From Nitrososphaerales archaeon (GTDB lineage Archaea > Thermoproteota > Nitrososphaeria > Nitrososphaerales > Gagatemarchaeaceae): a stretch of DNA of 64,000 bases. Of this stretch, positions 46,901 through 54,123 are shown piece by piece. Both the position numbers and the translations under genes were made by a program. Position 1 is the first letter of the stretch, and each line of letters begins with the position of its first letter. The stretch spans positions 1 through 64,000 of the forward strand of contig JAJTZB010000007.1 of NCBI GenBank assembly GCA_032906765.1, written 5' to 3'. The notes below the pieces were generated by a model, which was not told the DNA's origin, did not search any database, and saw nothing but the letters and a program-made list of their open reading frames with translations.

Positions 46901-47329
46901 AGGGAGGAGGACGAGCGCTCCGCCCTCTCGACCATCACGCCGCCGTGCAAGCTGAGGGCGATACCGGGCGACTTCTTCCGGAACAAGGACCCTGCAGTCT
47001 TCGGCGTCGAGATCTTGGCAGGCAAGCTGAGGCCGAAGCTGAGGCTGATGGGCAGGGATGGGGCGGAGCTCGGGACAATAGAGCAGATCCAGGACAAGGG
47101 AAAGAGCATGGCTGAGGCAAAGATGGGGGAGAAGGTGGCGATCTCGGTGAAAGGCCCGACACTCGGGAGGCAGATCAAGGAGAACGACGTGCTCTACACT
47201 CTGCCTAAGAGCCACGAGGCGAAGCTACTGAAGGGCAAGTTCCTCGCAGCCCTCTCACAGGACGACCTGGAAGCGCTGAACGAGATTATGGGAATCAGGT
47301 CAGCGTCGGACCCGCTCTACGGATTCTAG
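43970..47329 (+). CDS. infB: Translation initiation factor aIF5B with intein
   Basis: 1119 codons, of which 522 are an intein (separate entry); the spliced factor is 597 aa, normal for aIF5B. The GTPase P-loop GHVDSGK/TSLLDKIRG is interrupted by the intein. G3 is DTPGHE and G4 is NKVD. Domain II onward (RGIILEMQEEVGIGETANII) and a C-terminus ending DPLYGF match the family. It joins ribosomal subunits at initiation. A tnpB reading in from the other strand overlaps the last 35 bases. Confidence 0.96.
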   Translation: MSEFRNHLRQPVVVVLGHVDSGKCVSGDTLIQLADGRICPAERVFEEFKEGEPTRRPDGDVFEARDLDVLSVGPGGRVLPRKVSHVWKLHTDRLVSVETKAGYRVKCTPEHKFLVMSPEGETKYIEAENLRLGDHLLLPSRVPVVQSPLDRVKAEILARLSDDFLIRASSRLNDQVKSFSKGKSQKVGDEVGDGQFLFHIFKGYYRAPVFRRLTDALGLPLGEAYDQVEAIKFASKKQRASHVSPWVKLPRSRQGFEALTYLVGLLYGDGIARTGHLANISDDIMDVFSNCLLTAFGVGATKAWRRTSYVVYHKGGKSLARFLTEVFDYPVSDKTRSLRVPDVISRMPDDLVAAFLRGFFDAEGFVQEGRNIGVGCQSRELMRQLPMLLQRFGSLAYFGKSHSHEIFISGRDHVAAFVKHVGFRDREKMLATKRRLLDSGMNRVFDLTPIPGGFLTSVRRSNEVVWDKSFQLTSFEPYQRLSKHVLLRLPSVVPAYRNEALQVALSNFAMVQVTRLEVLDGSWEVYDFTVDDFHNFLANGLIIHNTSLLDKIRGTAVQAREAGGITQEIGASFFPLETLRAISGSLLDKAGGELQVPGLLVIDTPGHEIFSNLRLRGGSAADIAIVVVDVLKGLENQTLESIDILKQRKVPFLVALNKVDMIKGWRKGSVGPLLQLLKEQPPEWNDELEERLYNVVGGLSRLGFQSDAYYRVKDFRQQVSIVPVSARYGVGVPELLAMLIGLAQQFLKGKLQLIGEGHGGRGIILEMQEEVGIGETANIILTEGRLRVGDSIALVRKDGAFRSKVKALFMPKPLDEMRDPRDKFTTVHEVYAAAGVKLVSADLAGVVAGTSVASFGSETEFQSLKPEMEKDLTSVLVRTDNMGVIVKAGSVGGLEALLMMLEERGIPVRQSDIGDISKNDIIDAEVVGEHDPYLAAILAFDSKVLQDAREFADRVAIFTSKVIYEVIDNYSEWASKKREEDERSALSTITPPCKLRAIPGDFFRNKDPAVFGVEILAGKLRPKLRLMGRDGAELGTIEQIQDKGKSMAEAKMGEKVAISVKGPTLGRQIKENDVLYTLPKSHEAKLLKGKFLAALSQDDLEALNEIMGIRSASDPLYGF
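44039..45604 (+). other. Intein in the aIF5B P-loop
   Basis: 522 aa. It starts with Cys (CVSGDTLIQLADGRICPAER, block A), has block B GYRVKCTPEHKFLV, and ends VDDFHNFLANGLIIHN before extein Thr, so all splicing residues are present. A dodecapeptide homing endonuclease is embedded: motifs LVGLLYGDG (about 44751-44778) and FLRGFFDAEG (about 45030-45060), both with acids intact. The insertion is between Lys and Thr of GHVDSGKT. Confidence 0.95.
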
Positions 47330-48518
47330 GGTTCTGTTGACTCTTCGGGACAGAGCCAACTTCCATCCATCTGCTCAGGTGATTGCCCACGTCCTCCTGC
47401 GTCTGGGGTTCCCCGTCACGACTTCCCCTGGGTGGCCGAGCCTGCGGAACCACGCAGGCCATGACGTTCTTGCTCGCCAGCACGTCCCTATCCCATGTCT
47501 TGTCGCACTCAGGACAGAACAACTTCCTGTCTGCCAAAGGAACGACGCGGGAGCCACAGTCAGGGCAGTTACGGGATGTGCCTCTTGGATTAACGTAGGT
47601 GACAGGGATTCCTTCCCACCTGGCTTTGTACTCAATCTGTCTCTGGACCTCGTGGAACATCCACGAGTTCATCCTTCCCCTGAATGACCTCCCCTGTCCA
47701 TTCCCCTTCCTGTAGAGCTTCCTTATTCCGGTAAGCCTCTCCATCTTGATGCCGAAGCCTTTGTCTTTCGCGTGATTCACAATCGCTATGCTGATCTTGT
47801 GGAGCTTCTGGATCGTTCGGTTCCTCTCCCGTCTGCCGCACTTGGCGAGGAGCTTCTGCTGAATCCGCCTGTCCCTCTTGGTCTTCTGGGCAATCTTTGC
47901 CCTGTTCTCTCGGTATCTCTCCTTGATTTCCGCCACGTCAGACGTATCGACTTGTTCAGTTTGAGGCGTTGAGTCGGACCAAGTTACATTCCTCTCATTC
48001 ACATCGATGCCGATTTGCCCGTGGGGCTCAATCTCGGCAGTCTCTTTCGAGAAGGCGATGCTCAAGATGCGACCCGTGAGCGTGATTGAGCCCCGCTTCA
48101 GGCTCGGGTCATCGACGAACGAGAGGTGATAGTCCGAGGCTTGAAGGGTCAGATAGATGAACTCCCTCGGCTTTGTAGGTATTCTAAGAATCAGATGGTC
48201 GAGAGTGTAGGACTCATTGTCGAGCTTGATGAACCCTCGCTTGATGTATGGGTCGCTTTTTCGGTTCTTGTTTTGATAGACCGAATAGGCGACCTCGCAA
48301 GCCGAGAGGATGTAGTGGGTGTGGAGGCCATATTCCTTAAGGCGGGGATACGCGAGTTCTTGCAGCTTGAATCTGCTCCTAACCTTTTCGCCCGTTTCCC
48401 TCTCGTGGCCGAGAACAACTCGGATTGCGTCGTTGCACATGAGACGGAAGACCTCAAAGAGCGAATCGAGTTCGTTGGAGGCTTTGTATCGGAAGCGGAC
48501 CGCCTTTACGAGTCGCAT
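47295..48518 (-). CDS. tnpB: TnpB (IS200/IS605-type RNA-guided nuclease)
   Basis: 407 aa. RuvC residues are visible: D in GIDVNERNVTW, E in FGIKMERLTGI and D in WDRDVLASKN. The zinc ribbon CPDCG...CPECD lies between the last two. No TnpA is nearby, so it is a solo tnpB. Its 3' end overlaps the infB stop region by 35 bases antisense. That is where the element's right end and omega-RNA would be expected. A TTATAT promoter element lies about 25 bases before the ATG. Confidence 0.9.
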   Translation of the reverse strand: MRLVKAVRFRYKASNELDSLFEVFRLMCNDAIRVVLGHERETGEKVRSRFKLQELAYPRLKEYGLHTHYILSACEVAYSVYQNKNRKSDPYIKRGFIKLDNESYTLDHLILRIPTKPREFIYLTLQASDYHLSFVDDPSLKRGSITLTGRILSIAFSKETAEIEPHGQIGIDVNERNVTWSDSTPQTEQVDTSDVAEIKERYRENRAKIAQKTKRDRRIQQKLLAKCGRRERNRTIQKLHKISIAIVNHAKDKGFGIKMERLTGIRKLYRKGNGQGRSFRGRMNSWMFHEVQRQIEYKARWEGIPVTYVNPRGTSRNCPDCGSRVVPLADRKLFCPECDKTWDRDVLASKNVMACVVPQARPPRGSRDGEPQTQEDVGNHLSRWMEVGSVPKSQQNPRIRRAGPTLT

Positions 48519-52538: not shown

Positions 52539-53081
52539 CTACATTATGGCGGGGGCTCCCATCTTCGCCAGCAGAGCCCTGTCCCTCGCCTTCGCAGACG
52601 CGTCCGCCCTGACCATCACGATCCCTTCCCCCGGCTGGCCGTAGAAGACGTCCGCATGGAGCGGGGCCAGAGCTACTGCGGGTATGGCGAGCAGGTCCTC
52701 CTCCCCATCAACCAGCACCCTGGCAGGCTTCTTCCCCTCGAACGCCCTCTTGATCCCCTCTATTGCCTCGGCCGTTATGTAACCAGCAGGGTTCTTCACT
52801 CGTATCAGGCGCCCGTGCGGGACGTCCGGCGGCTCCCTCGCCTTCCTGTTCTCCCTCGCGTCGACAATCTGGACATCTGGGACCCTGCCCATCTCTCCAA
52901 GCACCTCCGTCACCCTGTCCCCGACTGAGACGACCATGCCCGAGTTTCTTACAGCCTTGGCGAACACGCCCGACTCGATCTCCTCACGGCTGAAGAGCCT
53001 GCCGAGAGGTCTCGCGAGCTTCTTGCGCAACTCCTCAGGGAGTCTGTATTGCCCGCTGGTTCTGTCAAGTCGTCGGGGCAT
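52539..53081 (-). CDS. GTP-dependent dephospho-CoA kinase
   Basis: 180 aa. DUF359 family, shown in archaea to phosphorylate dephospho-CoA with GTP in the last step of CoA synthesis. Conserved segments: RPLGRLFSREEIESG, VVSVGDRVTEVLGEMG, KNPAGYITAEAIEGIKRAF and VLVDGEEDLLAIPAVALAPL. The place between Spt4 and S24e is the standard archaeal one. Its 5' side carries a structured RNA candidate. Confidence 0.92.
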   Translation of the reverse strand: MPRRLDRTSGQYRLPEELRKKLARPLGRLFSREEIESGVFAKAVRNSGMVVSVGDRVTEVLGEMGRVPDVQIVDARENRKAREPPDVPHGRLIRVKNPAGYITAEAIEGIKRAFEGKKPARVLVDGEEDLLAIPAVALAPLHADVFYGQPGEGIVMVRADASAKARDRALLAKMGAPAIM

Positions 53082-53268
53082 GAACCCAACTCCTCAACTT
53101 GGAGGCATCAGCTCCGAGGATTACCATCCTCGTCATCGGGTTCCCCTTCACGGCTTCACTCGCCTCCCGCTCCCGTGCGAACCACACACGGACATCCTAT
53201 TGGGGCGAATTGCCACCCAGAGGGCATGGGCAATTCGATTGCCTTTCAGCGGCTGAGGCATAACCGAC
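53082..53268 (-). ncRNA. Structured RNA or leader with kink-turn
   Basis: A 187-base minus-strand segment between spt4 and dpcK has no conserved frame but several strong pairings. GAACCC/GGGTTC (53082-53087 with 53138-53143) encloses a 7-bp hairpin CGAGGAT-TACC-ATCCTCG (53115-53132, plus-strand sense). That hairpin is flanked on the minus strand by GATGA and CTGAT, a C/D-box-like kink-turn. CCGTGTG/CGCACGG and GGCAAT-CGA-ATTGCC hairpins precede it. A minus-strand CTTAAATG at 53289-53296 could promote it. It could be a free RNA or the 5' leader of dpcK. Confidence 0.45.
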
Positions 53269-53341
53269 GACCTCTCACTTGCGGTTCGCATTTAAGCACC
53301 AATGTCCCGATAACCTACCAGAGCCCGCCCGCTCAATGCGG

Positions 53342-53527
53342 CTAGCTTACCTTCAGAGCGTACCTGCCCTTCTTCGTTATCCCGAGCGTCTTCGCGACCT
53401 GGGACTTCTCGGGGTTGATTATGATTATCAGGCCGGACCATTCGTTGCTGAGCTCCGTCGACCCGTCGTTTGGGCACGTCTTCTCGTTGGTGAGCATCTT
53501 GCACTTCCTACACGCAAGCTCCTTCAA
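53342..53527 (-). CDS. spt4: Transcription elongation factor Spt4 (RpoE2)
   Basis: 61 aa from TTG 53527. The zinc site CRKCKMLTNEKTCPND and NEWSGLIIIINPEKSQVAKT, LGITKKGRYALKV are diagnostic. It pairs with Spt5 to increase RNA polymerase processivity. It follows the rpoE stop by 11 bases. Confidence 0.93.
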   Translation of the reverse strand: MKELACRKCKMLTNEKTCPNDGSTELSNEWSGLIIIINPEKSQVAKTLGITKKGRYALKVS

Positions 53528-53538
53528 TGCCCCACTAC

Positions 53539-54123
53539 CTACTTCTCGGCCCGCTCCTCGGCCTTCTTCTGCTTCTGCGCCTTCGTGATCTCGTCGTCGA
53601 TCCACTCGAGCGCGCCGAGGAACGGCTGCCTGCACGTAACTCCTATCTTGCCCATGGAGATTCCGCGGCCAAGGCTGACCGCCGTAATCCTGACGCGCAC
53701 CTTGCTGCCCACCTTGAGCGTCTTCTTGCTCTGGGAGGCTGTGATTATCCCAGACTTTACGTCGCTTGTCAGGTAATCGTCCATGATCTGGCTGAGGTGG
53801 AGGAGGGCGTCTGCCGGTCCGATCCTCACGAAGGCGCCGAAGTCCGTCACCTCGACTATCTCGCCCTCAACGAGCTCCTGTTTCAGGGGGAAGAAGGAGA
53901 GCACCTCGAACTTGACCTTATGGTACGTCGCGCCGTCGCCCGCTATGATCTTGCCCACCTTGTCCACGTCCACCTTTGTGACTAGGATGAGGTACCCATA
54001 GTCGGGGTTGATTGTGCTCTCGTACTTCAGCTTCAGCAACTCGAGCGCGACCTGCTCTAGTTGGGATCCAAAGCGATCTGGGGGAACGCGGACGACGTCG
54101 TCTAGGTTCACAAGCTCAAACAT
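53539..54123 (-). CDS. rpoE: RNA polymerase subunit E' (Rpo7)
   Basis: 194 aa. N-terminal RNP-like tip domain (PPDRFGSQLEQVALELLKLK) and C-terminal S1 domain (LVEGEIVEVTDFGAFVRIGP). It forms the stalk with Rpo4 and binds emerging RNA. A Lys/Glu-rich tail ends it. First gene of rpoE-spt4-dpcK-S24e-S27ae. Confidence 0.95.
   Translation of the reverse strand: MFELVNLDDVVRVPPDRFGSQLEQVALELLKLKYESTINPDYGYLILVTKVDVDKVGKIIAGDGATYHKVKFEVLSFFPLKQELVEGEIVEVTDFGAFVRIGPADALLHLSQIMDDYLTSDVKSGIITASQSKKTLKVGSKVRVRITAVSLGRGISMGKIGVTCRQPFLGALEWIDDEITKAQKQKKAEERAEK

Follow-up and report, generated by a model that had tools for sequence, protein, structure and literature searches.

The spt4-dpcK gap

The window, the whole 64,000-nucleotide stretch of Nitrososphaerales archaeon DNA that was analysed, contains a gap of about 260 nt between spt4 and dpcK. 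The gap is non-coding and all neighbouring genes lie on the minus strand (Table 1). As minus-strand RNA the gap folds at -85.5 kcal/mol, against -73.5 kcal/mol in shuffled sequences (z -2.66; 3 of 200 shuffles were equally good). An Rfam search of the gap gave nothing above threshold, the sole overlap being sR14, whose 14.3 bits fall short of the gathering score (38), and a search for tRNA and tmRNA found none. Bacterial promoter and terminator patterns were absent, although such patterns are uninformative for archaea. The preliminary description had proposed a structured RNA that belongs to no recognised family and a promoter-like element, and both proposals are borne out: the gap folds better than its shuffles and matches no Rfam family, and a TATA-like box lies at the same distance, about 25-35 nt inside the left end, in several related elements. 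The structured stretch it delimited is also real, but the true unit runs beyond both edges, on one side through codon eight of dpcK as annotated and on the other 29 nt further.

Table 1. Features of the locus and of the possible trans partner in the window.
Feature	Position	Strand	Basis or remark
rpoE1	53539-54123	-	Pfam/NCBIfam
spt4 (RpoE2)	53342-53530	-	PF06093, NF041664; stop codon 53342-53344
dpcK, GTP-dependent dephospho-CoA kinase (DUF359)	52539-53081	-	PF04019 114 bits, NCBIfam; annotated ATG 53079-53081
rps24e and rps27ae, two ribosomal protein genes after dpcK		-	Identity read from sequence
Whole non-autonomous element, 268 bp	53058-53325	-	Left end 53325, right end 53058; inverted repeats and duplication, empty site
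TTG directly 5' of left duplication	53334-53336	-	TAM-like motif; presumably the ancestral start codon of dpcK
Left target-site duplication AGCGGGCG	53326-53333	-	End search
Left terminal inverted repeat GGCTCTGGTAGGTTATCGGGACAT	53302-53325	-	End search
TATA-like box CTTAAAT, inside left end	53290-53296	-	Recurs in several related left ends
5' stem-loop of omega-RNA, TCCGTGT-GTGGTTC-GCACGGG	53172-53192	-	
Omega-RNA scaffold core	53091-53184	-	Model R1, 91.4 bits; 16 pairs, 96.2% paired
Hairpin of the preliminary description, CGAGGAT-GGTA-ATCCTCG	53115-53132	-	Not conserved
Right terminal inverted repeat	53058-53081	-	Encodes ATG and seven codons (MPRRLDRT) in the dpcK frame
Right target-site duplication AGCGGGCA	53050-53057	-	End search; equals first 8 nt of predicted guide
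Predicted guide AGCGGGCAATACAGACTCCC, dpcK codons	53038-53057	-	20-nt length assumed; inferred from known TnpB arrangement
TnpB of same group, possible trans partner	47295-48518	-	PF07282; NF040570 guided_TnpB 128.6 bits; RuvC D/E/D and zinc ligands in alignment
Weaker omega-RNA scaffold overlapping 3' end of that tnpB	47353-47452	-	R1, 61.9 bits; non-standard helix positions

A transposon at the start codon of dpcK

The structured stretch is a 268-bp transposon that lacks tnpB but contains an intact TnpB omega-RNA scaffold. When its ends were searched for independently of flank motifs, 17/24 positions matched between the terminal inverted repeats and 7/8 between the target-site duplications. 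The mismatches, at 7/24 and 1/8 positions, may mean that the element is an old and immobile relic. Full-length relatives have terminal inverted repeats of about 24 bp and 8-bp target duplications. We counted a duplication as proven where the repeats matched in at least 11/24 positions and the duplications in at least 7/8, flank motifs again being unused. Nineteen elements reach these values, as do 2 of 3298 mismatched pairings, and several (L007, L138, L231) have perfect 24-bp repeats and 8/8 duplications. A search of genome contigs with dpcK gave no match, and named relatives were gathered through TnpB; they include Bathyarchaeia, Asgard archaea and Thermoplasmatota. Six more duplication-proven elements were identified in named genomes, among them L306 in an Asgard record and L360 in Ca. 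Sysuiplasma, which brings the total to 25. The genome of the window carries another solo element belonging to the same subfamily of 266-268 bp (L002; G000:C6, about 15.4 kb), whose 8/8 duplication ATAAATCC is preceded by CTGG rather than a TT motif.

The empty site can be read from relatives. In about 25 of them dpcK starts 0-10 nt after the spt4 stop codon, mostly at TTG. Removal of the element and one duplication from the window gives ...AAGGTAAGCTAG CCGCA TTG AGC GGG CAA TAC AGA CTC..., the layout found in those relatives. Since the deletion restores their arrangement, the element landed directly behind the ancestral TTG start. The present in-frame ATG belongs to the right inverted repeat, which extends the dpcK product at its start. 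An omega-RNA transposon has thus landed on the start codon of dpcK, which serves CoA synthesis and is probably essential, and itself supplies the new start.

The omega-RNA scaffold

Copies of the gap sequence occur at about ten loci of the same genome, and at many loci elsewhere in the family. The section that the copies share (about 53093-53201) maps to the 3' end of tnpB genes and the bases that immediately follow. Of 400 genomes of the order, 59 contain matches to a covariance model (R1) built from 50 copies; a search of viral contigs found no relative. The consensus structure comprises an outer helix, a short GC helix, the pairing GGGGA/UCCUC and an inner helix. Nine of its 16 pairs have changed on both sides while 96.2% of cells remain paired, and covariation is 0.481; shuffles reach 0.143, and sliding the structure leaves about 0.1 at most. 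Around GGTTC, 59/61 copies form a 5' stem of 5 bp or more, built from 34 distinct stems; with shuffled flanks the figure is 19%. The window copy breaks none of the 34 near-invariant columns and has the second-best score among the copies of its genome.

A TnpB-like frame lies upstream in 109 of the 133 copies that have enough upstream sequence. By our reading of the list, the remaining 24 divide into about 8 apparent chance pattern matches and about 16 solo scaffolds, the window copy among them. A regular expression for the scaffold returned 166 candidate loci, of which at least 8 are apparent chance matches within genes nearby; the 25 duplication-proven elements include none of them. Five solo scaffolds of one type (L195, L227, L233, L239, L250) occur in another family of the order (f8), which suggests that tnpB-less copies are recurrent. 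Within the window, 5 kb from the element, a full-length TnpB is accompanied by a degenerate omega-RNA scaffold.

Shared ends with IS6-like transposons

The genome of the window has 20 matches to the TnpB family and 7 to a SWIM-finger DDE transposase of the IS6-like type. The inverted-repeat consensus GGTTCTGT is common to the TnpB-type elements and to autonomous IS6-like elements, four of which (L098, L099, L101, L102) have matching ends and 8-bp duplications in this genome. No element carrying both tnpB and the IS6-like transposase was found, and the autonomous IS6-like loci have no omega-RNA scaffold. Because the two kinds of element share their ends, we infer mobilisation in trans; an IS6-like DDE transposase supplied by another element most likely inserted the window element.

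The autonomous elements show some peculiarities. In L098, L101, L277 and L283 (and, with variant ends, L270 and L282) ACAGAACC, or a sequence very similar to it, stands immediately before the 8-bp duplication. As ACAGAACC is the end of another element, IS6-like transposons often lie exactly one duplication from an older end. A 2988-bp IS6-like element with 23/24 inverted repeats and a 9-bp duplication (L103/L074; G002:C2, about 113449-116436) has, besides its transposase gene, another open frame (236 aa) on the opposite strand.

Model for the window element

We propose that the window element is a non-autonomous omega-RNA transposon, mobilised in trans, whose guide would be the 5' end of dpcK and which may home; judged from sequence, we put the probability of this reading at about 0.8. 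The element would have kept its ends, the promoter-like box and the omega-RNA and lost tnpB. An IS6-like DDE transposase acting in trans would have inserted it with an 8-bp duplication behind the dpcK TTG, after which dpcK would start at the ATG of the right end. Transcription from the box at the left end would yield an omega-RNA whose 3' guide is dpcK 5' coding sequence. Since the element encodes no nuclease, any function needs a partner in trans: TnpB from another copy could load the omega-RNA and cleave chromosomes in which the site is still empty (TTG-AGCGGGCAATACAG...). An allele already carrying the element would escape, as there the guide match follows the transposon end instead of TTG. 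Cutting and repair would then favour the insertion, and the system may still be active.

The strongest competitor, to which we give roughly one chance in three, is that the element is a dead relic that now forms only the 5' region of dpcK: the omega-RNA would be inert, the right end would serve as the start codon and the left-end box perhaps as a promoter. The lack of tnpB, the diverged repeats, the in-frame ATG of the right end and the conserved TATA-like box all fit such a history. The intact scaffold fits it less well, since its match to every near-invariant column and its rank exceed what would be expected of a sequence decaying like the inverted repeats, and TnpB proteins with near-consensus catalytic residues are still present in the genome.

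A TT motif beside the left duplication

If the guide starts at the right end, homing would need a TAM at a defined position, and TT occurs exactly where it is expected. TT is found at -3/-2 of the left duplication in 16 of the 19 duplication-proven elements, compared with a local TT frequency of 6.9% (P 2.5e-17). The further elements from named genomes have it in 4/6 cases (20/25 in total); L306 and L360, with inverted repeats and duplications, are without the left TT motif, and the TAM may differ in their hosts. The pattern was first noticed on eight elements and fits 8/10 of those first seen afterwards in the search that gave the 19. Elements with good inverted repeats and no matching duplication have TT more rarely, in about 7/19 as counted by eye. 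In the empty site of the window locus, TTG is the TAM-like motif beside the guide match.

The homing model assigns this bias to TnpB. The motif could instead reflect a target preference of the mobilising transposase; many DDE transposases do favour certain target bases. We consider such a preference unlikely. The bias is confined to the left side, the mirrored AA to the right of the right duplication occurring in 4/19, though the inverted repeats can be identical (L007, L138, L231). Autonomous IS6-like elements, which have the same kind of ends and were treated with the same end search and the transposase gene as orientation, have TT in only 2/19 (Fisher p 1e-5).

Selection after insertion explains the TT bias, as only TAM-flanked copies could home, and guided insertion is unnecessary. 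That the RNA itself picks new target sites is unlikely, because what the guide encodes is the old site rather than the new one.

Relation to known TnpB systems

IS200/IS605 transposons lack terminal inverted repeats and target-site duplications, have subterminal hairpins and are moved by a Y1 HUH transposase (TnpA); the TnpA of IS607 is a serine recombinase. The present elements resemble both in a scaffold located where tnpB ends and at the right end of the transposon, in a guide expected from the right flank, in the T-rich motif on the left and in a TnpB with RuvC D/E/D residues and zinc finger. They differ in having terminal inverted repeats and 8-bp duplications and, in the window copy, in the loss of tnpB. 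That we are dealing with an ordinary IS200/IS605 (IS1341-type) element, moved by a Y1 transposase and with inverted ends by accident, is therefore very improbable, although the protein does belong to the TnpB family. The inverted repeats are element-specific and match in up to 24/24 positions beside the 8-bp duplications. Neither a Y1 transposase domain (PF01797) nor a serine recombinase/Resolvase domain (PF00239) was detected in the genome of the window, which is 95.6% complete, whereas control genomes gave matches. A Y1 gene in the missing 4-5% would still leave the duplications unexplained.

IS6/IS26 transposons and their miniature derivatives are closer in their ends. They share with the present elements an inverted repeat beginning GGTTCTGT (GG..CTGT), an 8-bp duplication, at 8/8 in the best relatives, and non-autonomous copies beside autonomous ones. 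They differ in cargo, which here is a TnpB/omega-RNA cassette, and the autonomous transposases, which contain a zinc finger of the SWIM type, reach 90.8 bits where the NCBIfam IS6 model requires 125.

Cas12 descends from TnpB, whose part in transposon biology is usually judged from IS200/IS605, where the transposase itself imposes the TAM. An IS6-like transposase leaves a mark of its own, the duplication, and here shows no TT preference, so that the share of TnpB in the survival of insertions can be read separately. This is what makes the idea of homing or drive testable from genome sequence. Such a drive is known experimentally for IS200/IS605 TnpB in plasmids (PMC11870625); there as in our proposal the guide records the insertion site and copies lacking the insertion are cut, but here the process is deduced from site bias in DDE-type elements. 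Fanzor proteins, which are eukaryotic or viral, are TnpB relatives that likewise reside on DDE-type transposons with terminal inverted repeats and duplications (PMC3627910, PMC10711439), as described for eukaryotes (PMC3627910). Prokaryotic TnpB-only elements have been stated to lack both (PMC3627910), TnpB elements are classed as IS605, IS607 and IS1341 (PMC9956272), and the consulted passages of a thaumarchaeal IS survey do not mention TnpB elements with IS6-like ends (PMC6563490). The searchable literature, mostly without subscription papers, holds no description of prokaryotic TnpB with such ends. The transposon type of the full-length relatives is thus provisionally new for prokaryotic TnpB.

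More tentatively, at somewhat below even odds, TnpB in Nitrososphaerales-type archaea may have been captured by IS6-like DDE transposons, a prokaryotic parallel to Fanzor, and would there filter or direct the persistence of insertions, with solo omega-RNA copies driven in trans by TnpBs elsewhere in the genome. If captured TnpB does filter insertions, nearly every surviving copy would lie behind NTTN at the edge of an 8-bp duplication.

The hairpin of the window copy

The preliminary description had read the gap as a C/D-like kink-turn RNA and had proposed covariation as a check. Covariation exists, but the covarying structure is the TnpB omega-RNA. The GA/GA-flanked hairpin on which the kink-turn was based is present in the window copy; across the 50 copies it is paired in 51%, with covariation of 0.073 against 0.076 in shuffles. 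A conserved leader for the CoA-synthesis and ribosomal protein genes is refuted by relatives with almost no spt4-dpcK gap. With no conserved hairpin, no leader in relatives and no Rfam match, next to no credence can be given to an independent kink-turn or C/D-like RNA that binds L7Ae, or to a leader regulating CoA synthesis. A secondary, locus-specific effect of the element on dpcK is conceivable. The hairpin is private to the window copy, where it competes with the conserved GGGGA/UCCUC pairing.
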